A stretch of 64,000 nt of DNA, taken from contig JAILAA010000034.1 in assembly GCA_024681875.1 (NCBI GenBank), forward strand, positions 8,794 to 72,793, read 5' to 3'. Below are positions 4,992-54,642 of this stretch, in pieces; within the stretch, counting starts at the first letter, position 1; each line of letters begins with the position of its first letter. The DNA comes from Prevotella sp. Its GTDB lineage: Bacteria; Bacteroidota; Bacteroidia; Bacteroidales; Bacteroidaceae. The notes under the pieces were generated by a model. The model ran no database searches. It was not told where the DNA came from and worked only from the letters and a program-made list of their open reading frames with translations. The position numbers and the translations under genes were made by a program.

Positions 4992-6224
4992 TTAGATTTC
5001 TTGATTCTTAACTCTTAACTCTCTTATATACGTGAAGAGATAAAGGACGCCAACGGCCATGACCAGCACGGCTCCTATCTGTCCGATGGCATCGCTGGCA
5101 AAGCCCATGAGCAGCGGGAAGATGGTGCCGCCGAAGAGACCCATGATCATCAGGCCACTCACCTCGTTCTGCTTGTCGGGCATGGCGGTGAGGGCTTGTG
5201 CGAAGCACATGGAGAACACGTTGCTGTTGCCATAGCCTACGAGGGCGATGCCTGCGTAGAGCAGCACCTTCGTGTCGCCCACGCCCATCAGCAGCATTGC
5301 TGCGGCCATCATAACTACCGAAATGATGAAGAAGGTGCGTGTCTTCAGCACTCTGAGGAAATAGGAGCCAGTCAGGCAGCCCACGGTACGGAAGATGAAA
5401 TAGAGCGAGGTGGCAAATCCGGCATCTTCGAGCGTCATTCCCGTGCGCTCCATCAGTAGCTTGGGGGCCGTGGTGTTGGTACCCACGTCGATGCCCACAT
5501 GGCACATGATGCCGAGGAACGAGAGCAGCACGACAGGTACGCCCAACAGTCGGAAACAGTCGGCAAACTGCTTGCCCACAGAGGGCATCTTCTCAACACT
5601 CTTCTGTTCTTCATGAATAGGAGTAGACCAGAGCAGCAGGGTGGCTGCAACGCTGATGACGAAATAGACGGCAAACAGCACGCGCCAGTCAAGGCCGAAG
5701 GTGGGAATCAGCGCCTTGTAGCCCCAGCCGGCAATGAGCGGAGCCATAAACGAGGCAATGGCCTTGATGAACTGTCCGAACGTGAGCTGCGAGGCCAGGT
5801 TTTCGCCTCCGCTCACCAGAGCCATCAGCGGGTTGAGCGAGGTCTGCATCAGCGTGTTGCCAATGCCGAGCAGCGAGAAGGCTATCAGCATGATGGGGAA
5901 GCTGTTGCCGAAGACAGGCAGCAGTAGCGAGAGGGCCGTGACAGCCAGCGAGAGTAGTACCGTCTTCTTCTTTCCAATCTTGTTCATCAGCACGCTAGTA
6001 GGCACGCTGAAGATGAGGAACCAGAAGAACACCAACGACGGCAACACGTTGGCCACACTGTCGGTCAGACCTTGTTCGGCTTTCACATAGTTGGATGCGG
6101 TGCCCACCAGGTCGACGAAGCCCATGCAAAAGAAGCAGAGCATCAGGGGCACAAGTACAAGTTTGGCCTCACCCCTGCCCCCTCTCCGACGGGAGAGGGG
6201 AGTAGTTACATTTTGCTGTGACAT
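4992..6224 (-). CDS. MFS sugar permease (FucP/GlcP type)
   Basis: Inner-membrane sugar:proton symporter, probably for fructose or the sugars released by the PUL enzymes. The 410 residues contain about 12 hydrophobic segments, beginning with LVLVPLMLCFFCMGFVDLVG, which resembles the first helix of fucose/glucose permeases. Residues 7-20 (TTPLSRRRGGRGEA) are translated from one arm of a palindromic element that spans the junction with the GH32 gene. The last residues (ELRVKNQEI) come from a 7-bp-period repeat. So both ends are repeat-derived while the transport core is intact. The start is the ATG at 6224; a start further in would have to be non-ATG. Confidence 0.85.
   Translation of the reverse strand: MSQQNVTTPLSRRRGGRGEAKLVLVPLMLCFFCMGFVDLVGTASNYVKAEQGLTDSVANVLPSLVFFWFLIFSVPTSVLMNKIGKKKTVLLSLAVTALSLLLPVFGNSFPIMLIAFSLLGIGNTLMQTSLNPLMALVSGGENLASQLTFGQFIKAIASFMAPLIAGWGYKALIPTFGLDWRVLFAVYFVISVAATLLLWSTPIHEEQKSVEKMPSVGKQFADCFRLLGVPVVLLSFLGIMCHVGIDVGTNTTAPKLLMERTGMTLEDAGFATSLYFIFRTVGCLTGSYFLRVLKTRTFFIISVVMMAAAMLLMGVGDTKVLLYAGIALVGYGNSNVFSMCFAQALTAMPDKQNEVSGLMIMGLFGGTIFPLLMGFASDAIGQIGAVLVMAVGVLYLFTYIRELRVKNQEI
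4998..5025. repeat. 7-bp-period repeat at the 3' end of the MFS gene
   Basis: Four successive heptamers of the TTCTTAA/CTCTTAA type, forming the last codons of the permease. Confidence 0.75.
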
Positions 6225-6305
6225 ATCAATTATACTTAATTTGGTTATTCAAAGGAAGAGTCTATTTACTCCCCTCTACCTTTGGAGAGGGGTTGGGGGT
6301 GAGGC
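6166..6305. repeat. Palindromic element A1 bridging GH32 and the MFS gene
   Basis: Arms 6166-6209 and 6262-6305 (44 bp each) match the arms of the element at 1941-2055 and are inverted to each other. The right arm codes the GH32 C-terminus (SLTPNPSPKVEGSK) and its TAG stop at 6264-6262. The left arm codes the MFS N-terminus after MSQQNV. The 52-bp middle contains the MFS start codon. Confidence 0.85.
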
Positions 6306-7974
6306 TGTAAATCGTTGCCTTTCCCCCCTTCACTTTCAGCATAGAATATGGCTCAGAGGGGAACACCAGGTTGGTCATGGCCATCTTGCCTTCTGCGTCG
6401 AAGGCCTCGATGCTGCAGCGGTCGATGAAGAGGCGCAGCTGCCTGACGGCACCGAAGGTCGGGGCCACCGTTACGCAGGGGAAGGACTCGCTGAAGCTCA
6501 CGTCGCCGCTCTTCGTGCGGTCCATGCTGAATGTCAGCTGCTGTGCATCGTAGTGCATCGTCACCTGCTCGCCCTTGGCGTTCGAAAGTGTGATGTCGGC
6601 CGAGCCCTTCACGTCGATGATAATCTCGCAGGCCTCCGTGGGCTGCTTCACCTTCTTGCCGCGCAGCGCCGTCACCTCCTTCGAGGGCGTGCTGGTGAGA
6701 TAGGTCTCGCCATTGACGGTCTTCAGGCCCAGGTCGCGCGGCAGACCATTAGCTGAGCGGAACTGCTTCGTAGGCACCTGATTGGCATACTGCCAGTTGC
6801 TCATCCAGGGCAGGGCGACGATGCGGCCTTCGGGAGAATTGTGGAAGGTGACGGTGGCATAGTGGTCCTTGCCGTAATCCATCCATTTCGTCTCCGAGGC
6901 GTTGTCCTCACACACAAACTGATGACCGTCGAACTGTCCCACGAAATACTGCGTGGCCGAGCCGCCGAAGGGACCGCCGGGATTGATGTTGAGCAGCAGT
7001 ACCCACTTGTCGCCGAAGCAGAGCATATCGGGGCACTCCCACACGCCATCGTGACAGCCGTAGGTACGGCCGAAGGAACTCTCATACTTCCACTCCTTCA
7101 GGTTGTCAGAGCTGTAGAACTGCACCTCCTGACCCACGGCCAGCACCACGATCCAGCGCTTTGTCTGCTCATGCCAGAACACCTTGGGGTCGCGGAAGTC
7201 GGGCGCATTATAAGTAATGACAGGGTTGCCGGCATATTTCGTGAAAGTCTTACCATTGTCACTGCTATAGGCGATGCTCTGCGTCTGAGCAGCACCGGCC
7301 GAGGTGTACATGGCGATGACGGCATTGCGGCCGAAGCCAGCAGTATTATCCTTGTCGACGATGGCGCTGCCCGAGAAAATGGCTCCCAGCCAGTCACCCT
7401 CAATAGCCAGCGGCTCTGCTTCCCAATGAATGAGGTCGCTCGACGTGGAGTGTCCCCATGTCATGTTCTCCCATTGCGAGCCGTAGGGGTTGTACTGGTA
7501 GTAAAGATGCCACACACCATCCTTGTAATACATCCCATTGGGGTCATTCATCCAGCCGTAGAGCGGCGTGTGGTGATACAGCGGACGGAATTTTTCACGG
7601 TTCGTTGTGTCGAACGTGTCGCTATATCTCATCTCTTTCCAGCACACGAAGTCCTTTACGGCACCCGTCGTACGTCGGTCGCCTTGGAAGGTGATGTCAA
7701 GCAGCTGTGCCTTGCCTATTTCAAAAGGCACGTAGTAGTCGGCCTTGTCCACGGCCAGGCGCACATTCAGCCGTTTCACCATGTCATTCTTACTGTCGAG
7801 GACGGCAATGTGCGCGTTCTCCTCTTTCTCCTGCACGGGCAACAGCAGATACTTCTTGCCCTGTTCCAGTCGCATCATGGCATGATTGTCGCCCAAAATC
7901 ATCGGCGTCTGTGCCTCCATCGTCGTGCCGGCCATCACTGCCATTAATGTCATCAACCATTTTTTCATGTTCAT
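6262..7974 (-). CDS. GH32 beta-fructosidase (levanase/inulinase/invertase type), secreted
   Basis: Hydrolyses beta-fructosidic bonds in sucrose, inulin or levan. The protein (570 residues from the ATG at 7974; 7968 is a second possible ATG) has a short signal peptide ending near MEAQ. The GH32 catalytic triad is complete: WMNDPNG at 141-147 (nucleophile Asp144), RDP at 261-263 and ECP at 313-315, followed by a C-terminal beta-sandwich. A domain of about 100 residues before the propeller (24-130) resembles the N-terminal module of some Bacteroides GH32 enzymes. The last 14 residues and the stop codon come from a palindromic element. It heads an operon with the MFS permease, fructokinase and perhaps GH36. 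A TAATTTTG box (8012-8005) lacks a good -33 element, and a long inverted repeat lies upstream, which fits activator-dependent control. Confidence 0.92.
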   Translation of the reverse strand: MNMKKWLMTLMAVMAGTTMEAQTPMILGDNHAMMRLEQGKKYLLLPVQEKEENAHIAVLDSKNDMVKRLNVRLAVDKADYYVPFEIGKAQLLDITFQGDRRTTGAVKDFVCWKEMRYSDTFDTTNREKFRPLYHHTPLYGWMNDPNGMYYKDGVWHLYYQYNPYGSQWENMTWGHSTSSDLIHWEAEPLAIEGDWLGAIFSGSAIVDKDNTAGFGRNAVIAMYTSAGAAQTQSIAYSSDNGKTFTKYAGNPVITYNAPDFRDPKVFWHEQTKRWIVVLAVGQEVQFYSSDNLKEWKYESSFGRTYGCHDGVWECPDMLCFGDKWVLLLNINPGGPFGGSATQYFVGQFDGHQFVCEDNASETKWMDYGKDHYATVTFHNSPEGRIVALPWMSNWQYANQVPTKQFRSANGLPRDLGLKTVNGETYLTSTPSKEVTALRGKKVKQPTEACEIIIDVKGSADITLSNAKGEQVTMHYDAQQLTFSMDRTKSGDVSFSESFPCVTVAPTFGAVRQLRLFIDRCSIEAFDAEGKMAMTNLVFPSEPYSMLKVKGGKATIYSLTPNPSPKVEGSK

Positions 7975-19543: not shown

Positions 19544-20895
19544 CGCTCGAGAATCTCCAGACACATGCGGCTGTTGTGGTAGGGACATTTCCAGAAACCG
19601 GCATGGTCGTCGTCCTGATTCAATGTGCCGTCGGCATGGCGGCTCCAATACCATTCGCCGTGCTCCCAGTCTATCAGGTTGTCCTTGATGTACTGCCAGC
19701 AGCGTAACGCACGCTGTAATGCCTCCTCATCGCCAAAGTGCTGATAGAGATTCATCCAGCCTACGACGTTTTCGGCCTGCACCCACCAGTGCAGGTCGTC
19801 GTCTTTTTTCCCTTTCTCCGAGGAGGAGGGGTGCCAGTAGGGTGAGGTGGTAGCGATAGTTGCCTCGTGAATCATCGACCCGTCGGCATTTAGGCCTTTC
19901 TCGCTGGCTTTTGCAATTAATTTAACGATGGATTCGACCTTTTTTGTCACTTCGTTGTCGCCTAGCACTAGCGCTGCCTCATGCAGCAGCCAGGAACACT
20001 CGATGTCGTGGCCATAGCTTTCTATCTGTCCTGCGCCACGCGTCCAGTCCATCTCGAAGAACAGGTCGAGGTGATTGGTTTCTGGGTTGAGGATCTTGTC
20101 TGTGAAAATGTCAATAAGGTTTCGCAATGCTCCCTCCACCTGGGTGATGGTTTCGTGCGGAACGGCAATGTCGATGGGAATGACTGAGCCGATGACAGGA
20201 ACGTAAGCACATTCCTGAGCTGCTTGAAGCTCCCGCATGGCACGAAGAAGGTTCGTGTAGGGCTCGATGATGTGAAGGTGAGTATTCTGCGACTTGGGGT
20301 AGTTGGCGTCAAGGTCGCTCAGACGCATGTCGGCAATTGTTCCCCACTCTCGTGTGCAGGCCTCGATATAGCCGTTGTGCACTGGGTCGAAGGCATGTTC
20401 TTCGATGCAGTCAAAGAGCTGTAGGGCATAGTCGAGAGCTTCACGGTCGCCAGTGGCGCGGGCATATTCTGACAAACCATAGAGTGCAAAACCGAGGGCA
20501 TAAAACTGCTTCTTAGTGTCTTTTGGCTGCCCCGTGTGGTCCAAGCTCCAGAACACTCCACCGTATTCTTTATCGATGAAATGGGCTAAAATGTAATCTT
20601 TGGCCCTGGTAGCGGCCTCCAAATAATCAGAGAGGTAAGGGGAGAGAGGTGAGAGGTGAGAGAGCACCCTATATGCCGCTGAGAAGCTCCAGAGGATGCG
20701 GGCATTCAGGATGGCGCCTTTCTCGGCGTCCTTCAACAGCCGGTAGTCGCCGGTCATACGTCCGTAGAAACCGCCGAACTCGTGGTCCTGCATGTCCTTC
20801 AGCCAGAAACTCAGGATGTTTTTCTGCAGCACGTCCTGCATCTCGTTTTTCATCGTCGCTATTGCGGCTGTTTCAGCATGTTTGTTGCTCTTCAT
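19534..20895 (-). CDS. N-acylglucosamine/cellobiose 2-epimerase family enzyme
   Basis: An (alpha/alpha)6-barrel sugar epimerase of the AGE family, most likely epimerising beta-1,4-disaccharides (cellobiose or mannobiose). The 453 residues include NILSFWLKDMQDHEFGGFYGR (26-46), typical of cellobiose epimerases, EKGAILNARILWSFSAAYR, and conserved His positions in ECSWLLHEAALVLG, LHWWVQAENVVGW and WKCPYHNSRMCLE. The start at 20895 precedes a second ATG 14 codons in (20853), which may be the real start. A 7-bp repeat writes RVLSHLSPLSPYLSD between helices. N-acylglucosamine epimerase is the alternative function. Confidence 0.85.
   Translation of the reverse strand: MKSNKHAETAAIATMKNEMQDVLQKNILSFWLKDMQDHEFGGFYGRMTGDYRLLKDAEKGAILNARILWSFSAAYRVLSHLSPLSPYLSDYLEAATRAKDYILAHFIDKEYGGVFWSLDHTGQPKDTKKQFYALGFALYGLSEYARATGDREALDYALQLFDCIEEHAFDPVHNGYIEACTREWGTIADMRLSDLDANYPKSQNTHLHIIEPYTNLLRAMRELQAAQECAYVPVIGSVIPIDIAVPHETITQVEGALRNLIDIFTDKILNPETNHLDLFFEMDWTRGAGQIESYGHDIECSWLLHEAALVLGDNEVTKKVESIVKLIAKASEKGLNADGSMIHEATIATTSPYWHPSSSEKGKKDDDLHWWVQAENVVGWMNLYQHFGDEEALQRALRCWQYIKDNLIDWEHGEWYWSRHADGTLNQDDDHAGFWKCPYHNSRMCLEILERYS
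20630..20664. repeat. 7-bp-period repeat inside the epimerase gene
   Basis: Five heptamers of the GAGAGGT type in register, coding LSHLSPLSP-like residues on the minus strand. Confidence 0.8.
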
Positions 20896-20926
20896 TTTTA
20901 ATGTGATTCAAGTTTCTGCGTTTGCT

Positions 20927-21002
20927 GTCATGGACTTACACGGTCTTAATCGGACTTTTTTATGCAGTTTATTTCCGTAATAGTCCGTGAAAGCCCGTGG
21001 CT
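20927..21002. repeat. Intergenic inverted repeat of the CACGGACTTACACGG type
   Basis: Left end ATGGACTTACACGG and right end CCGTGAAAGCCCGTGG are roughly inverted to each other. The same word is found in the tandem repeat inside rnpA (38587-38664). It fills most of the 141-bp gap between sufD and the epimerase gene. Confidence 0.6.
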
Positions 21003-21036
21003 CTGTTTATTACCTTCCGTTACTTGAGTTTTATGA

Positions 21037-22473
21037 CTATTGACAAAGGCGACAGCCCTTGCACTTGCTGAGTTCTCCGCGGAAGCGCTTCTCTACAAGA
21101 TAGTGCAGACGGTCGCGCAAGGGCACGAGGCTGATGCCGTCGATGACCTGGTTTATGAAAGCCACCTCAAGCAATGTGCGTGCCTCTTCGCGAGGGATGC
21201 CGCGCTGCTGCATGTAGAACAGGGCCTGGTCGTTGAGCTGGCCCACGGTGCTGCCGTGCGCACACTTTACGTCGTCGGCATAGATCTCGAGCATGGGCTG
21301 TGTATACATGTGAGCCTCTTTGGAGGAACAGAGGTTTTGGTTGGTCATCTGCGACGCGGTCTGCTGTGCGCCGTGCTCTACTAATACGCGACCCGCAAAG
21401 GCACCCGTGCTCTGGTCGTTGAGCACGTATCTGTAGAGCTCGTTGGATGTGCAGTGCGTTGCTCGGTGGGTGATGAGCGTATTGTTATCCACATGCTGCT
21501 GTTTGTCGGCGATGACGCATCCCAGGCATTTACATTCGGCACCCTCGCCGTTGAGTGTCAGGTCGAGTTTGTTGCGGGTGACGCCGTTGTGCAGGGTAAT
21601 GACGTTGTGGGTGACGCGGCTGTTGCGCTGCTGGTCAATATAGACGTTGCTTACACGTACATTCTTATAATGGGTTTCCTCCAGACAATAGAGGTTGACG
21701 GTAGCGTTGTCCTTGGCGAACACTTCGATGACCTGCGTGGTGAGGAAAGCTTGGTCGTCGGCAGCATGGTCGCAGAAGAGCAGCGTCACCTCGGCGCCTT
21801 CCTCGGCCACGATGAGCACGCGGCGATTGACCATGAAAGGCGCAGACCCACCCCCAGCCCCTCCCTGTGCGGGATGAGTGTGGTTACTGCTAAAGGGGCT
21901 CTTTAGGATATTCAATACTTGGATGGCGCGCTCGGCCTTTACGCCACGGGGCACGTAAATGAGCAGACCGTCCTGCGCCAGCATGGTGTTGAGGTCGGTA
22001 ACGGCATCGCCGTCCTTGCCTGCCAGGGTGTTGTAAAGGTGTGAGGTGAGGGGTGAGAGGTGTGAGGATAGTTCTTTTAGGGAAGCGACGATGACACCAT
22101 CCGGAAGATGAGGCTTAGGTATTCTCTCACCTCTCACCTCATGCCTCTCACCTCTCATCTCGAACTTCTCACCCCCATAGAACTGATCGTTAACGATGAA
22201 GAAAAGGTCGGTCGAGAGGTTGGGCACGTCGCAGCGGAAGGCCTGCCAAGGGTCTACGGGGATGTTTAGGCGACGCAGGTTCAGGCCATAGTCAGGCTCG
22301 AACAGCTTCTGCAGGTCGGTGTATTTGTAGCGCTCCATCTTCTGTGTGGGAAAGCCATTGGCCTTGAAGCGCGCAAAGGCCTCGTCGCGCACTGCGTTCA
22401 TCACCTCCGATGAATGCTCGAAGATAACGTCGCGCTGCTGCTCGTAGATGTCGATGTACTGTTGCTCGCTCAT
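21037..22473 (-). CDS. sufD: Fe-S cluster assembly protein SufD
   Basis: Scaffold partner in the SufBCD complex. The start is ATG 22473 (MSEQQYIDIYEQQRD), overlapping the sufC stop by ATGA; the longer open frame is an artefact. The 478 residues hold the SufB/D beta-helix (VTLLFCDHAADDQAF, NVYIDQQRNSRVTHNVI) and the C-terminal conserved part HGSTVGQLNDQALFYMQQRGI. Three repeat-derived inserts interrupt the N-terminal half: two 7-bp repeat tracts (RGERHEVRGER and SSHLSPLTSHL) and one palindromic half-element (NHTHPAQGGAGGGSA). Their frames stay open and the beta-helix core after them looks normal, so the protein is probably functional. Confidence 0.93.
   Translation of the reverse strand: MSEQQYIDIYEQQRDVIFEHSSEVMNAVRDEAFARFKANGFPTQKMERYKYTDLQKLFEPDYGLNLRRLNIPVDPWQAFRCDVPNLSTDLFFIVNDQFYGGEKFEMRGERHEVRGERIPKPHLPDGVIVASLKELSSHLSPLTSHLYNTLAGKDGDAVTDLNTMLAQDGLLIYVPRGVKAERAIQVLNILKSPFSSNHTHPAQGGAGGGSAPFMVNRRVLIVAEEGAEVTLLFCDHAADDQAFLTTQVIEVFAKDNATVNLYCLEETHYKNVRVSNVYIDQQRNSRVTHNVITLHNGVTRNKLDLTLNGEGAECKCLGCVIADKQQHVDNNTLITHRATHCTSNELYRYVLNDQSTGAFAGRVLVEHGAQQTASQMTNQNLCSSKEAHMYTQPMLEIYADDVKCAHGSTVGQLNDQALFYMQQRGIPREEARTLLEVAFINQVIDGISLVPLRDRLHYLVEKRFRGELSKCKGCRLCQ
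21842..21880. repeat. Palindromic half-element in sufD
   Basis: GCAGACCCACCCCCAGCCCC followed by TCCCTGTGCGGGAT; matches the outer GCAGACCCACC and the CAGCCCCTCCC part of the A2 elements at 33628-34432. Codes HPAQGGAGGGSA on the minus strand. Confidence 0.65.
22039..22066. repeat. 7-bp-period repeat in sufD (first tract)
   Basis: Four heptamers of the GTGAGAG/GTGTGAG type in register, coding part of SSHLSPLTSHL. Confidence 0.8.
22124..22172. repeat. 7-bp-period repeat in sufD (second tract, inverted)
   Basis: Seven heptamers, mostly CTCTCAC, in perfect register. The tract is the reverse complement type of the one at 22039-22066, so the two form an inverted pair around about 57 bp. Codes MRGERHEVRGER on the minus strand. 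Confidence 0.85.
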
Positions 22474-23213
22474 AACTCTTTTAGCCAGTCGTAACCCTTC
22501 TCCTGTATCTCCTGCGCCAGCTCCGGACCTGCCGTCTTCACGATGCGCCCCTGGTAGAGCACGTGAACGTACTGCGGACGGATCATCTCCAACAGACGGT
22601 CGTAGTGGGTGATGACGATGCACGACGTCTGTGGCGTCATCAGCTTGTTCACACCGTCGGCCACAATGCGCATGGCATCCACGTCAAGGCCTGAGTCGGT
22701 CTCGTCGAGGATGCTCAGCCTCGGCTCGAGCATGGCCATTTGGAAAATCTCGTTGCGTTTCTTCTCGCCGCCGCTGAAACCCTCGTTCACCGAGCGGTTG
22801 GCCAGCTTGGCGTCCAGTTCCACAATCTTGCGCTTCTCACGCATCAGCTTGATGAAGTCGGCGGCGTTCATCGGCTCTAAGCCCTGTGCCTTGCGCTTCT
22901 CGTTGATAGCAGCCTTCATGAAGTTGGTCATAGAGACGCCGGGGATTTCCACTGGATACTGGAACGATAGGAACAGCCCCTCGTGCGCCCGTTCCTCGGG
23001 CTTCATGGCCAAGAGGTCCTTGCCGTTGAATGTGGCCGTGCCCTCGGTCACCTCGTAGAGCGGGTTGCCCACGAGGACGGCTGAGAGCGTCGACTTGCCC
23101 GAGCCGTTAGGGCCCATGATGGCGTGTGTCTCGCCATCGTTGATCACCAGGTCGATGCCTTTTAATATCTCTTTGTCGCCGATGCTGGCGTGTAGGTTTC
23201 TTACTTCTAACAC
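22470..23213 (-). CDS. sufC: Fe-S cluster assembly ATPase SufC
   Basis: ABC-type ATPase that powers the SufBCD scaffold. The 247 residues contain Walker A GPNGSGKST (33-41), the signature FSGGEKKR and Walker B-type LSILDETDSGLDVDA, where DETDSGLD is typical of SufC. Start ATG 23213. Between sufB (42 bp) and sufD (ATGA overlap) in the usual order. Confidence 0.97.
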   Translation of the reverse strand: MLEVRNLHASIGDKEILKGIDLVINDGETHAIMGPNGSGKSTLSAVLVGNPLYEVTEGTATFNGKDLLAMKPEERAHEGLFLSFQYPVEIPGVSMTNFMKAAINEKRKAQGLEPMNAADFIKLMREKRKIVELDAKLANRSVNEGFSGGEKKRNEIFQMAMLEPRLSILDETDSGLDVDAMRIVADGVNKLMTPQTSCIVITHYDRLLEMIRPQYVHVLYQGRIVKTAGPELAQEIQEKGYDWLKEL

Positions 23214-32759: not shown

Positions 32760-35700
32760 TTATCGGCGTTTGAGCCAGAGCACCTGGCCGTTGTGGAGTC
32801 CGGTGCGGAGGAATGTTTCGTTGACTTTCAGCTTCTTCTGCAGCAGGGTGACGCGGCCTGTGGAGGCGTCGATACTGAAGAGATTGTAGGTGCCGGATTC
32901 TATGCTGAGGCTGACGGTGTCGCCCTGTGCATAGAGCAGATAGCCTTCGGTAGCGCTGCCAAGGGCCACGCAGCCGTCGGCTTCCATAGGCTTCATCTGT
33001 GGTATGGCGCGCAGCAGCTCGTCGTGATAAGGGTTGCCGACGCCAGCCTGTAGCGGGACGTTGGGCAGCGAGCCGCCAGCCATGAGGATGGCCCATCCAT
33101 ATTGCGGATACTGCTGTGAGAAGAACGTCACGGACTTGTCGGGATACTTTTGACGCATCTCCAATACGGCGTCGTAGGCCTCCTTGAAGCCCGTCTTTCC
33201 CACACGCTCCTTGCGCATCCACTGGCGTGGTGCCATGTTGCGGCCTGCGCGTGGGGCCCAGAGTCCCTGCGTGTTGTAGTGCCAGTAGCGGATGTCGATG
33301 ATGTCGACCACACGACTGAGCTCGGGGTCGGCCATGATGCTGTCCTGGGCATCGCGAGTGCAACTGAGGGCTATCAGCGGATGACGACCTGTCTCCTCTT
33401 CCCACTCGGCGATGGTCTGTAGCCAGAAGCGGGTGAAATGCAGCGGTCCGGTATATTCAGCACTGATGAGATGCACCACATTGGGCTGATCCTTCAACTC
33501 GTCCAAGCACATACGGATATACTGGCGGTGCAGGGGCCGCAGCACGCTGTCCGTCTCGTCATAGAACTGCTCGGCCATGAAGATACGCTTGTCGCCAGCA
33601 AAGGGCACGGGTTCGGGGAAGGGAAGAGCAGACCCACCAGACTCTCCCCCACCAGACTCTCCCCCAACCCCTCCCTTGTAGGGAGGGGGGCAATTTGCTT
33701 GCACGCCCTTCTTTTGCGCACTCTCCGCCTTTGGGGTATCTCCTCCCCTCCCTACAAGGGAGGGGTTGGGGGAGAGTCTGCTGGGGGTGGGTCTGCTAGT
33801 CCCATAATTAATATTATTCACCGGCCTCCACGGGCAGTCCACCCAGTGGGCACCGGCCTCGAGGATGTTGTGCTGGAAGTAGTGGTGGTGGAAAAGGAGA
33901 ATGTCGTGGGCGGCGGCTTTGTCGGCAAACTCTCGCAGACGGCTCCAGTACCACTGGTTAGGGCGTGTCAGGTCGTAGCACGAGAGGCCGTCCCATGCTG
34001 TGCCTACGCCGCTGCGACTGAAGGGCTGCTCGTAGAACGGTGCCCACACATCGCCGTCAGCACGGCGCACGCGCTCATGGTCAGTACGGCGAAGATCGTA
34101 CCACAGTCCGTAGTTATGGGATAGAGAACTATAATGGCCATCAACCAAGAAGGTCACGACGCTGTCTATACGGTCTGTCCAGCCTGTTCCCTCGCGTCCG
34201 GGCACAAAACGGGTGATGGCGGGCTTGGCATCGCGAAGCACAAAGTTATCCTTCACCCGACCGCTCCACCAGGGGATGTTGTATTGGTTACCAGGCCCAC
34301 CAAAAAAAGACGCTCCGGACTCTCCCCCAGTCCCTCCCTTGTAGGGAGGGGGGCAATTTGCTTGCACGCCCGTCTTTTCTAGGGAAGAGGTAATTCCTCC
34401 CCTCCCTACAAGGGAGGGGCTGGGGGAGAGTCTTTTTATCCACTCCTCCATCGTAAGCCGTGGTGTGGTCAGCGACTCCATGGCCATCTGCATGGCCTGC
34501 TCCTCCGTGGGTGACGACGTGGCGTTGGTGTTCATCGGCAGGAGTAAGGCCTTTGGGCCGTTGTCTCCGATGCGAGCCTCCAATTGCGCGTAGAATAATG
34601 AGCGCGGCTGCACATGGTCGTTGCTGCTGGTCCATTCGGCGTTGCCCGTCAGCGTGCCCCAGCAGCCATGACCGCTGCAGCGGTTGTCCTTGTCGGGCGA
34701 ATAGCACCAGATGGTCGAGGCGGTGCACTGCCAGAACATGGAGTTGGCCGTGTTCCAGCCTGTGCCGAACTGAAACTGTTCCAGATTCTTGAAGCACAGG
34801 TCGTGGCCGTCGATGTTGACGATGTCGAAGAGCAGTCCGGCTGCCCATGAGCCTATACCGCCGCTAAATCCTAATGATTTTTCGCCCTCGCACTGCACAA
34901 ACGCGTTGGGACCGGCGGCGCAGAATCCGGCGGCGAAGTCGTGGATGCCCTCACGAGATACGCATCGCTGAAAGAGCGTCTGCTGACCGCGAGTGAGGAA
35001 GACCTGACGGCGCCAGCCGCCAATCTCCGAGACGGGCTCCTGCGCGATGCAGTCCTCTACGGTGATGCGGCTGGTGTGTAGCTGCAGGTTGACGGCTGAG
35101 CCGGCAAAATGGCGGAAGTTGACACCATCCACCCAGCAGTCGCGGGCATACTCCATGAAGATGGCGTCCCAGCAGTGGTCTTCATCCTTCGTATTCCACT
35201 CATTTTTTGCCGATTCCATCGTTAGATTCTCTACACCGCACTCGGTCAGTTCGCCCCCGTGATGGCCTACGAGGATATGGGCGCCGCCAAACTCTGGGCT
35301 GATGGAAGTAGTCAGTGGCGCGTCAAGGATGAGGGAGTCATTGCGCACATCGGTGATTGTGCGGTCCCAGCGCAGTTCGATGTCGGTGGGCTTCCAGCCT
35401 GTATAGTCCAGCCCGCCACCGAAATCGCGCATACCTAAATGGTCTATCCACTCCCACGTGCAGGGGCGGAGAATGGTGATTCTGAAGTGTGAGGTGAGAG
35501 GTGTGAGGTGAGAGGTGAGAGATTTCAGGCTGATGGCGGTGCTGCCGGCGGGGATGCTGTCGGTGATAAAGCAGAGGGTGTCGGCAGGATGGGTGTCGGC
35601 AGAGCCCTCGATATAGAGCAGGGCACCACGGTCGAAGCCGTGCTTCACAAGGATAGTCTCATCTCTGCTTGCACCACGCAACACTACACCCGAGGCATTG

Positions 35701-51828: not shown

Positions 51829-54642
51829 TTATAGCGGATCGACGTCGTAATAAAGTTGCAGGCTGGCGTAACGCTTGTCCTGCAACATTTGTGTCTGGGC
51901 CAAGCGAAGGTATTCGCGCACCTTCACCATATCGATGCCACGCTCCAGCTTCAGCACGAGCTTGCGGATGCTCAGTGTTTTTACACGGGCCACAGCTGGT
52001 TTGTCGGGCCCCAGCACACGGGCACCAAACCATTGGCGCAGACGGGCTCCCAGCTCCAAGCCGGCCGTGTCTACGATCTGGTCTTTCTGATGCTTAAGGA
52101 AGATATAGACGATTCGGTAGTAGGGCGGATAGTGGAAAGCCTGGCGCTCAGCTAGTAGCGAACGGAAAAAAGCCTGATAGTCGTTGCGCACCACATAGTC
52201 GATAAGTGGCAGGTCTGGCTGCTTGGTCTGAAGGATGACAAGGCCTCTTTTCCCCTTGCGCCCTGCTCGTCCGCTCACCTGAGCCATCATCATGTAGGCG
52301 TGCTCGTATGCCCGGAAGTCAGGATAGTTGAGCATCGAGTCGGCATTGAGGATGCCCACTACGCTCACCTTGTCGAAGTCGAGACCCTTGGTCACCATCT
52401 GCGTACCGATGAGCAGGTTGGTGCGTCCGGCAGAGAAGTCGCTGATCAGATGCTCGTAGGCCTGTCGTGTGCGTGTCGTATCGAGGTCCATGCGTGCAAC
52501 GCGTGCCATAGGGAAGATGTCGCGTATCTGATCCTCAATCTTCTCAGTGCCGTAGCCCTTGCCCAGCAAGTCCTTTGAGCCACAGGCGGGACACTCCGTA
52601 GGCACGCGATAGGTGTTGCCGCAATAGTGGCATGTCAGCTGGTTCATCGAGCGATGCAGCGTCAGCGAGACGTCGCAATGCTCACATTGTGGCACCCAGC
52701 CGCATTGCTTGCACTCCACCATCGGTGCCCAGCCGCGGCGGTTCTGAAAGAGGATAGCCTGATGACCGCTCTCCAATGCTTCGCGCACGCGAGCTAACAG
52801 GAGAGGTGAGAACGGGCCGCGCATCATCTTCCTACGCTGCAGTTCCTGAATGTTCACAACCTGTATCTCGGGCATCTCAATGTCCTGATAGCGTTGCTTT
52901 AATTCCACTAAGCCGTACTTGGCCCCCTCCAACCTTCCCCAACTGGGGGAGGCTGTTTCGCTCTGAAAAGGACTGGGGGAGTGAGAAAGACTGGGGGAGG
53001 CTGCTGCGGCAGAGGAAATCAGCTTTTTAGGTTGTATGGGAGTTGTTGCATTATAGTACGTCTCAATTGAAGGCGTTGCTGTGCCCAGTAGAACCTTCAC
53101 CTGAACATCTATTCCTAATTCCTCTTGTATTGTCTTTATGACTTCATTGGGAGATAATAATATTTGTTCGTTAGTAAATCTCAGCTCTTTGAAGCCCATT
53201 TCTTTAAGCATGGCAGTTCTCAGCGAGTCTGCTTCTTTCTGCTCTGGGGTAAAATGATAGCCACCATCAATTTCAATAACAAGATTCTTGGCCAAACATA
53301 CAAAATCCACAACAAAATCCCCAATAATGTACTGCCTGCGGAATTTCTCGGTTATTTTATTTTGCCTTAACAGTTCCCACATGGCAGTCTCTGCCTCAGT
53401 CTGTTTGTTTCGGTTCTCCAAAGCAAAAGACTTCAATAATTTATAAGATGATGGTATGGCTGTTTTATAATGATTAATTATTTCCTGTTGTTTTTCATGC
53501 GCAGCAGCCTCCCCCAGTTGGGTGAGGTTGGAGGGGGCCGTAGTTAGCATTATTGCTACACTCCTTGCATGATAGCGGGGAGCCGGGTCCTGTTGCTTGA
53601 AGCTGGTTTCATGCTCTTCGTCGACGATGATGAGGCCTAAGCGCTGGAAGGGCAGGAAGACAGCGGAGCGGGCCCCAAGAATGACGTCGTAAGGGTGGGG
53701 TGAGAGCTGCTTCTGCCAGATCTCTACGCGCTCGGCATCGCTGTATTTCGAGTGATAAATGCCCAAACGATTGCCGAAGACGCGCTGCAGGCGCTCCATC
53801 ATTTGAACCGTCAGGGCAATCTCGGGCAAAAGGTAGAGCACCTGCCTGTGCTGTTCTATCTCACGCTGAATGAGGTGGATATAAATCTCCGTCTTTCCGC
53901 TGCTGGTGACACCGTGTAACAACGTGACAGGCTTTTTCAGGAAAGAGAAGAGAATCTGGTTGAAGGCCTCCTGCTGGGCCTCGCTCATCTTCTTAATCAG
54001 TTCAGGATGCGGCTCACCGTTCTTGTTCAAACGGCTTACCTCCACCTCGTAGGTCTCCAGCATGCCACGCTTCACCAACAGGTTCAGTGTGGGCAGTGTG
54101 GCACCGCTCTGATTCATCAGTTCTTCGCGGGTGACGGGCGAGATGCTGACATTCTCATCGCCAACCATATCCCAACCGGACAATTGTAAGTAACTGACGA
54201 ATGCCTGCTGCTGTTTGGGAGCGCGGGCGAGTATGTTCAGCGCCACATGCAGTGTTGTCTCGTTCTGGTAGGCAGGCGTCAGGCGGATATAGGTCTCGGT
54301 GCGCGGATGGTAGCCTTCTTCCGCTTTTAAACCAGCAGGCAGTGCGGCCTTCATCACGTCGCCAATGGGCGACATGTAGTAATCGGAAATCCAGTGCCAT
54401 AGCTTTAGCTGGGCATTGAGCAGGATGGGCTGCTCATCCATCAGCTGTGTGATGGGCTTCACAGCGTAGCCCTCGGGCTTGATGTCGTGCAGATGGTCGA
54501 CGATGCCAACGTAGCTCTTGCCTCGTCCGAAAGGTACTAAGACGCGCATGCCCGGCTTCAGCATTGGCTGTATGGCATCGGGCACGGAGTAGGTGAATAG
54601 GCCGTCGAGCGGCACAGGCAAGATGACGTCGGCGTAGCTCAT
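51829..54642 (-). CDS. priA: Primosomal protein N' (PriA helicase) with an inserted DUF559 nuclease domain
   Basis: Restart helicase that reloads the replisome at stalled forks. PriA parts: N-terminal DNA-binding domain, Walker A GVTSSGKTE, DEEHETSFKQQDPAPRYHARSV, GTATPSIET (520-528), zinc-binding Cys pairs (CKQCGW, CEHCDV, CHYCGN, CPACGS) and GTQMVTKGLDFDKV. At 937 residues it is over 100 longer than usual. Residues about 369-514 are an insert holding a full DUF559 endonuclease fold (409-510); residues about 535-574 (PIQPKKL ... WGRLEGA) are a second, repeat-derived insert. Between them is the native helicase motif KVLLGTATPSIETYYNATT. The frame is intact throughout. The start overlaps the ftcD stop by ATGA. 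Confidence 0.95.
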   Translation of the reverse strand: MSYADVILPVPLDGLFTYSVPDAIQPMLKPGMRVLVPFGRGKSYVGIVDHLHDIKPEGYAVKPITQLMDEQPILLNAQLKLWHWISDYYMSPIGDVMKAALPAGLKAEEGYHPRTETYIRLTPAYQNETTLHVALNILARAPKQQQAFVSYLQLSGWDMVGDENVSISPVTREELMNQSGATLPTLNLLVKRGMLETYEVEVSRLNKNGEPHPELIKKMSEAQQEAFNQILFSFLKKPVTLLHGVTSSGKTEIYIHLIQREIEQHRQVLYLLPEIALTVQMMERLQRVFGNRLGIYHSKYSDAERVEIWQKQLSPHPYDVILGARSAVFLPFQRLGLIIVDEEHETSFKQQDPAPRYHARSVAIMLTTAPSNLTQLGEAAAHEKQQEIINHYKTAIPSSYKLLKSFALENRNKQTEAETAMWELLRQNKITEKFRRQYIIGDFVVDFVCLAKNLVIEIDGGYHFTPEQKEADSLRTAMLKEMGFKELRFTNEQILLSPNEVIKTIQEELGIDVQVKVLLGTATPSIETYYNATTPIQPKKLISSAAAASPSLSHSPSPFQSETASPSWGRLEGAKYGLVELKQRYQDIEMPEIQVVNIQELQRRKMMRGPFSPLLLARVREALESGHQAILFQNRRGWAPMVECKQCGWVPQCEHCDVSLTLHRSMNQLTCHYCGNTYRVPTECPACGSKDLLGKGYGTEKIEDQIRDIFPMARVARMDLDTTRTRQAYEHLISDFSAGRTNLLIGTQMVTKGLDFDKVSVVGILNADSMLNYPDFRAYEHAYMMMAQVSGRAGRKGKRGLVILQTKQPDLPLIDYVVRNDYQAFFRSLLAERQAFHYPPYYRIVYIFLKHQKDQIVDTAGLELGARLRQWFGARVLGPDKPAVARVKTLSIRKLVLKLERGIDMVKVREYLRLAQTQMLQDKRYASLQLYYDVDPL
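52921..52955. repeat. 35-bp arm of an inverted pair in priA (distal copy)
   Basis: Plus strand begins GGCCCCCTCCAACCTTCCCC. Inverted copy of 53505-53539 with 33 of 35 matching bases. Two partial copies (ACTGGGGGAG) follow at about 52972 and 52990. Codes ASPSWGRLEGA on the minus strand. Confidence 0.9.
53113..53496 (-). mobile_element. DUF559 (Vsr-like) endonuclease domain inserted in frame in priA
   Basis: Codes priA residues 383-510. It has the whole DUF559 pattern: NHYKTAIPSSYKLLKSFALENR, then TEAETAMWELLR with Glu418, KFRRQYIIGDFVVDF with Asp446, LVIEIDGGYH (457-463), the DSLRTAMLKEMGF helix and ELRFTNEQIL. All family acidic and His positions appear present, so it could be an active nuclease of the very-short-patch-repair fold. 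Its DNA is visibly more AT-rich than priA around it. I know of no PriA with this domain as a normal part. Confidence 0.85.
53505..53539. repeat. 35-bp arm of an inverted pair in priA (proximal copy)
   Basis: Plus strand CAGCCTCCCCCAGTTGGGTG then AGGTTGGAGGGGGCC; inverted copy of 52921-52955. Codes APSNLTQLGEAA directly before the DUF559 domain. Confidence 0.9.

Follow-up and report, generated by a model that had tools for sequence, protein, structure and literature searches.

A DUF559 nuclease between inverted palindromic arms in a Prevotella PriA gene and its candidate role in a REPIN-like mobile family

How a primosomal helicase comes to contain a nuclease is the question raised by one gene of a Prevotella genome (GenBank assembly GCA_024681875.1). 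The window analysed here, 64,000 nucleotides of contig JAILAA010000034.1 (positions 8,794 to 72,793), holds a PriA frame of 937 amino acids (window positions 51829–54642; PriA, its parts and the arm elements located below all lie on the minus strand) with two in-frame inserts, and the first of these carries a DUF559 nuclease domain preceded by a palindromic arm. This insert probably belongs to a mobile family that resembles REPINs and has DUF559 as its enzyme. The package of nuclease and hairpin, present in many genes and several phyla, points to an overlooked mobile family that settles inside essential proteins.

The insert in PriA and its sites in relatives

The initial annotation regarded the DUF559 domain as complete and foreign to PriA, and both points hold. 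Pfam places DUF559 (PF04480) at residues 404–509 (53116–53433) with E = 5.6e-29 and 100.6 bits against a cut-off of 20.6, covering profile positions 4–108 of 109, and around it finds the PriA 3'BD, DEAD, Helicase_C and zinc-ribbon domains, with a C-terminal PriA domain at 24.1 bits, slightly under its cut-off of 26.9. At site 1 the left arm (53505–53539), read in frame as APSNLTQLGEA, is followed by a linker (53434–53504) with a predicted N-terminal helix around IINHYKTAIPSSYKLLKSF and then by the nuclease. A native PriA stretch, VLLGTATPSIETYYNATT (53041–53094), separates this insert from a second in-frame insert of 40 amino acids at site 2 (52921–53040), which ends in the right arm (52921–52955). 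The two arms, 549 bp apart, are inverted copies identical at 33 of 35 positions, as had been described. Their local score of 30 was matched by none of 3000 random placements (maximum 29, the top ones possibly lying on the same arms). The insert is indeed richer in A and T than its host, with a G+C content of 38.7% in the DUF559 domain against 55.8% in the PriA flanks and 71.4% in each arm. The nuclease had also been called spliced into the protein; by sequence nothing is spliced, and the nuclease is simply part of the host frame. Pfam matches contained no Hint or intein family in PriA (E ≤ 0.01) or in 20 other frames (E ≤ 1e-5). A full-length PriA structure model (8 sequences) reached a mean predicted local distance difference test (pLDDT) score of only 48, too poor for any structural claim about the insertion loop.

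Site 1 is empty in some PriA genes and occupied in others. Ten related genomes were searched with the window PriA; one (G005) yielded DUF559 matches only, and the PriA of all nine remaining relatives lacks DUF559, one of them (G003) holding a lone left arm at site 1 (L059). Native PriA reads ..HARSAAIML-x-VLLGTATPSMESYYNA..GKYGLVEL across the region. In a wider sample at least 194 of 200 genomes had a match to the PriA query, not every match being PriA, and 29 of these PriA loci were inspected (L125–L153). Among them, L126 carries the full arm-DUF559-arm element at site 1, L153 a two-arm element without nuclease at the same site, and L127, from another species, a separate two-arm insert without nuclease at site 2. 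The closest among the matches listed (L125; 91–93% identical as protein, 85–87% as DNA) has no DUF559 and a different short repeat at site 1.

A protein search with the DUF559 stretch only, restricted to candidates of about PriA size, found 266, of which the best 120 were used. Among the matches listed were 11 PriA-DUF559 proteins, and 10 of these have both arms in frame at site 1, reading APSNLPQLGEA...ASPSWGRLEGA or nearly so (P0003 is a fragment starting at the left arm; P0012–P0014 are near copies of one another). The eleventh (P0002) is 98% identical and laid out as in the window, where site 1 has no right arm and the right arm belongs to the site-2 insert. Since 10 of the 11 keep both arms at site 1, the ancestor of the window probably had the full element there and has since lost its right arm, and the site-2 insert is probably a decayed two-arm element. 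The native motif GTATPSIET lies between the inserts. Two insertion events, which the initial annotation also preferred, fit better than a single 619-bp element, because relatives hold the whole element at site 1 and L127 a separate insert at site 2. No clean target duplication was found at site 1 when L126 (GGGG/GCCCCC...GGGGGC/TAAG) was set against the empty-site locus L144 (TGGGGGCTAAG); the border is ambiguous because G and C letters are common to element and empty site. Other short repeat families (for example TATTCACTATCCACTATCAACTATTCACTA, AAAAGCC and GAGGTGAGAGG) also lie in frame in the same PriA loop, at L125, L128, L135 and L137.

Arms beside DUF559 in other genomes

Arms flank DUF559 well beyond PriA. 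We compared the 250 bp upstream of each DUF559 locus with the reverse complement of the 250 bp downstream, taking random positions in the same loci as the null. An inverted-repeat score of at least 12, a cut-off picked after the null of the first set had been seen, was reached by 39 of the 52 loci in that set (null 21/2080), by 19 of 30 (16/900) and 20 of 27 (18/810) in two more, by 13 of 23 in the phylum of a Candidatus Giovannonibacteria genome (8/690) and by 8 of 12 on plasmids of other phyla (12/360). Overall, 99 of the 144 loci reach the cut-off, as do 75 of 4840 random placements; the 144 include orthologous insertions and are not independent. Twelve further loci lie outside that count; four of them (L186, L187, L188, L191) duplicate counted loci, and seven of the other eight score at least 12. 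Arms beside DUF559 genes elsewhere, which the initial annotation had suggested looking for, are therefore present. Its proposal that DUF559 could mobilise the repeats is partly supported: arms flank the domain elsewhere, the PriA of nine relatives lacks it, and neither of the two outcomes that it had named as refuting turned up.

A second test looked for a pyrimidine-rich hairpin (stem of at least 7) no more than 250 bp away. Of the 144 loci, 131 have one on at least one side and 95 on both, where the null gave about 75 and 2 of 864 (counts rebuilt from rounded fractions). By set, in the order given above, neither side has one at 6/52, 3/30, 0/27, 1/23 and 3/12 loci. Acetyltransferases, a gene family of similar size, served as a control with thirty loci of the same phylum, the windows being shifted outward by 30–40 bases because the gene is longer; a hairpin was found on either side of 1/30 and on both sides of 0/30, and no locus (0/30) reached an inverted-repeat score of 12. 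The plasmid set comprises 12 of 45 plasmid records with a DUF559 match. Loci of Pseudanabaena, Picosynechococcus, two Deinococcus, Qipengyuania, Sphingomonas, Sphingobium and Novosphingobium score at least 12, and those of Azospirillum, Sinorhizobium, Methylobacterium and Geobacillus less. Arms thus occur beside DUF559 in five phyla: Bacteroidota, the candidate phylum, Pseudomonadota, Cyanobacteriota and Deinococcota; the single Bacillota locus examined had none. Examples of a tail near TNGGGGGTGGG following the hairpin come from Prevotella, Qipengyuania and the candidate phylum. Several free-standing copies (L154–L180 and others) have the G-rich tails toward the gene and the hairpins outside.

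A population of cognate arms was analysed in one genome, Prevotella G001. Hairpin and tail occur there 65 times with at most 3 mismatches (33 on one strand and 32 on the other, against 0 for the reversed control). Neighbouring arms within 300 bp are inverted in 25 of 26 pairs, which accounts for 50 arms with outer lengths of 87–232 bp. A 580-bp DUF559 element at the start of ispF in G001 carries the same arms as this population. Nineteen arm loci were checked, 14 of them pairs, and 7 of these 14 pairs lie inside an open frame of 279–658 amino acids. Pfam names five of the seven hosts, an SAM synthetase, a radical-SAM/TRAM (MiaB-type) enzyme, ArgRS and two helicases; the other two had no Pfam match.

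The same link appears between genomes. In a sample of 296 genomes from the phylum of G001, 170 have a DUF559 match and 39 contain the hairpin pattern CCCCTYYC-N(2-5)-GRRAGGGG. The pattern is present in 28 of the 126 genomes with a strong DUF559 match and in 11 of the 170 without one (Fisher p = 1e-4, a test that ignores kinship, on counts that include arms adjoining DUF559 itself), and at least three copies are present in 15/126 and 3/170, respectively.

DUF559 is inserted in frame in many unrelated genes. It lies inside the CCA-adding enzyme, isoleucyl-tRNA synthetase (IleRS) and leucyl-tRNA synthetase (LeuRS), and is fused to the N-terminus of a SpoU methylase, an amino-acid kinase (ArgB-type), IspF, guanylate kinase and an RNase H protein. 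Pfam accessions add MetH-type, GH31, glycosyltransferase, N6/N4 methylase, DegT and sugar-epimerase proteins, and further hosts are HsdR, HsdM, type ISP, MmeI-like and GATase_5 (PurL-type) proteins. Some of these names are partly what we take the accession numbers to mean (LeuRS, IleRS, GH31, GT4, DegT, epimerase, MetH), as are PurL for GATase_5 and the site labels rmlA, rfbB and gmk. Of two LeuRS proteins, P0006 and P0017, one has two dissimilar DUF559 copies at two sites and the other a tandem pair. In an HsdR-type protein (L087:175-3315), a GIY-YIG domain and DUF559 both stand in frame after the N-terminal domain and before the helicase. At L109 and L113 ispF is unfused, and the arm remnants upstream of it resemble what a deletion in a DUF559-ispF fusion would leave.

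A candidate mobiliser and its rivals

The nuclease between the arms has a conserved active site. All nine residues considered (E418, D446, E457, D459, H463, D472, R475, R488 and N491) are present in the window copy, and their conservation is 0.99–1.0 in 72 embedded copies and 0.96–1.0 in 56 others. The ratio of nonsynonymous to synonymous substitution (dN/dS) is 0.05–0.13 in 7 of 11 locus pairs, all seven being free-standing or N-terminal copies; the other four are saturated at silent sites. A model of the domain (26 sequences, pLDDT 86) matches the fold of 3hrl (E = 1.6e-6), the catalytic domain of I-Bth0305I (5.3e-5) and, more weakly, Vsr (0.03; probability 1.00). In its modelled fold and its E-D-x-H-D type active site the window DUF559 agrees with an EDxHD, Vsr-like nuclease. 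Weak matches of the same model include apicomplexan and ciliate mitoribosomal proteins.

We propose that the family has two forms. The coding form comprises two inverted palindromic arms around the open frame of a small EDxHD (Vsr-like) nuclease, DUF559, and the non-coding form two arms with roughly 30–170 bp between them, each arm being a pyrimidine-rich hairpin with a G-rich tail, often NNGGGGGTGGG. DUF559 may recognise the arms and cut either there or at the target, after which repair would copy the element DNA in, for the coding element itself and in trans for two-arm copies. Insertion into a tolerant loop of a gene would give a longer, presumably working host protein, which is possible because no stop codon interrupts the arms or the nuclease in the frame that is read. 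An essential host gene would then guard the element against all but exact loss. The architecture, the empty sites, the in-frame insertions, the link to arms in five phyla, the conserved active site and the cognate arms of G001 are observed; arm recognition and cutting, the copying route, activity in trans and the function of the enlarged hosts are all parts that we infer.

Several results weigh against this proposal. The strict inverted-repeat test misses 45 of the 144 loci, three loci (L193, L201, L202) have no hairpin by the second test, and the inward tails frequent among the free-standing copies are the reverse of those of the in-protein copies of Prevotella. The in-protein pairs are saturated and give no dN/dS (proportions of nonsynonymous and synonymous differences, pN and pS, of 0.19 and 0.89 for L001/L002 and of 0.24 and 0.84 for window/L126). 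The other 7 of the 14 arm pairs checked in G001 are not in a long frame, and the hairpin also occurs in 11 of the 170 genomes that have no strong DUF559 match. Three of these 11 (G018, G060, G068) hold 3–12 hairpins, perhaps relics of old copies or a sign that the genomes are incomplete. Selection on the arms against stop codons was not supported (12/32 stop-free, 8.7 expected from composition). Neither transposition nor a clear target duplication was seen, and ten high-copy genomes yielded no near-identical copies within a genome among 27 loci of the 72 matches listed, the closest pair sharing 80% over 202 bp.

The history of the domain belongs on the same side of the balance. On a tree of 128 DUF559 rows, with 59 of 124 inner branches unresolved and one row (L026) wrongly labelled, host-site groups mostly cluster, requiring 27 changes for 23 groups against a shuffled mean of 77.7, and many insertions are accordingly old. 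The tree omits L014, L043–L047, L050–L052, P0002, P0013, P0014, identical cores, and LeuRS and IleRS rows above 16 each. Copies from PriA and from the CCA enzyme group together (support 89); those from LeuRS are scattered, with 7 changes, of which well-supported branches require just 1. Across 84 locus pairs, the nuclease falls below the more similar of its flanks in 69, the pattern of plain inheritance. In six pairs it stands more than 5 points above that flank, as recent local transfer would give: L018/L021, L019/L021 (99.7% against 74–91% in the flanks), L022/L024 (92.6% against 68–81%), L030/L031 (99.7% against 75–91%), L009/L026 and L044/L047 (85% against 50–74%). A jump between L009 and L026 was rejected, both being at the same SpoU-type gene.

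Three other explanations were weighed. DUF559 could be kept for a benefit to the host, such as defence, repair or the policing of repeats, and merely adjoin them. Purifying selection, largely vertical inheritance at each site and the several restriction-modification proteins among the hosts all suit such a domesticated role, but the hosts have no function in common (synthetases, PriA, IspF, guanylate kinase and MetH-type proteins among them), and it accounts poorly for the two LeuRS proteins in which DUF559 occurs twice, in one as dissimilar copies at separate sites and in the other in tandem; we regard it as unlikely. We give somewhat less credence still to DUF559 as cargo lodged between two arms, with the palindromes moved by another enzyme, for instance a Y1 (RAYT-type) transposase. 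REPs of other bacteria are tied to RAYTs according to PMC3116915 and PMC3733652, and Y1_Tnp is common, in 210 of the 296 genomes. Its presence is, however, unlinked to the hairpin (30/39 genomes with the hairpin, 180/257 without; p = 0.45), two hairpin genomes (G013, G212) have DUF559 and no Y1, and cargo should vary, yet in several phyla the arms enclose the same nuclease, its active site conserved.

Least probable of the three, in our view, is homing between alleles, in which DUF559 would cut empty alleles of its own site, such as a conserved stretch of LeuRS or ispF, and be copied by recombination between cells, the arms being no more than convenient ends. The closest listed fold match with a published function, I-Bth0305I, is a homing endonuclease, and the six pairs in which the nuclease outscores its flanks would fit homing. 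It does not explain the 25 inverted pairs of the same arm elsewhere in G001, nor the similar hairpin and tail in several phyla. Mobilisation of the arms by DUF559 is the reading we retain. Its broadest form is more tentative, falling a little short of an even chance: DUF559 nucleases of the EDxHD type may be dedicated mobilisers of a second, RAYT-independent REP/REPIN-like superfamily spanning at least five phyla, with coding copies shielded inside essential proteins. If so, a widespread domain of unknown function would gain a role and a large class of palindromic repeats a candidate enzyme, and a mobile element could persist as part of an essential protein without splicing. Nuclease domains annotated in synthetases, PriA and similar proteins should be treated with caution, as insertions.

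Known systems and further copies in the window

REPIN/RAYT systems offer the nearest parallel. As PMC3116915 describes them, REPINs are short imperfect palindromes in inverted pairs that form a non-autonomous population, the enzyme gene is single-copy with the same palindromes beside it, and RAYTs are largely congruent with their species. The family described here likewise has inverted palindrome pairs in many copies and the same palindrome beside the enzyme gene (65 arms in G001), and the largely species-congruent habit reported there for RAYTs resembles the history of DUF559. It differs in its enzyme, an EDxHD nuclease where RAYT is an HUH/Y1 transposase, in its tag, with G-rich tails such as TTGGGGGTGGG in place of GTAG, and in the many copies that lie in frame inside proteins, enzyme domain included. 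Anatomy, distribution and selection suit a REPIN-like family with DUF559 as its enzyme. This family would work like REPIN/RAYT but is not a member of it, because enzyme class and tag, both tested, differ.

Rickettsia palindromic elements (RPE) have entered protein genes that are unrelated to one another, repeatedly and in frame (PMC10969869), a habit shared with the DUF559 family. Unlike it, they measure about 150 bp and encode a short conserved peptide, and the passages of that paper considered here describe no enzyme. According to PMC3733652, R. conorii RPEs end in CGTC, and CGTC repeats, including those of Bacteroidetes, apparently lack a dedicated transposase. DUF559 might supply the enzyme that seems to be missing for protein-coding palindromes of this kind. 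A Thermosynechococcus paper has already assigned a DUF559 gene to EDxHD (PMC9403480). With I-Bth0305I and Vsr, DUF559 appears to share the fold, as modelled, and an E-x-D-G-x-x-H type active site; it differs in that its insert has palindromic arms and the domain stays in the host frame, and neither an intron nor an intein nor an extended DNA-binding region was seen for it. As with inteins, a nuclease domain sits in frame inside conserved essential proteins, but Pfam matches of the scanned DUF559 hosts include no protein-splicing domain. In the literature covered, most subscription papers lying outside it, we recognised no paper linking DUF559 to palindromes, which does not prove that none exists.

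The window holds further members of the family. Two-arm elements lie in frame in a GH36 alpha-galactosidase (1938–2055, without nuclease), at the junction of a GH32 C-terminus and a major facilitator superfamily (MFS) N-terminus (6166–6308), and twice in frame in one DUF6298 protein (33638–33795 and 34318–34433). All of these are clearer members than the decayed single arm in frame at 21844–21887. The arm family had been said to interrupt sufB there; the decayed arm is real, and its frame (21037–22623) is one that we take, by its family, to encode a SufD-like protein instead. Other short repeats like those in the PriA loop are also found in the window at 20630–22173, in this SufD-like gene, and at 35487–35543.

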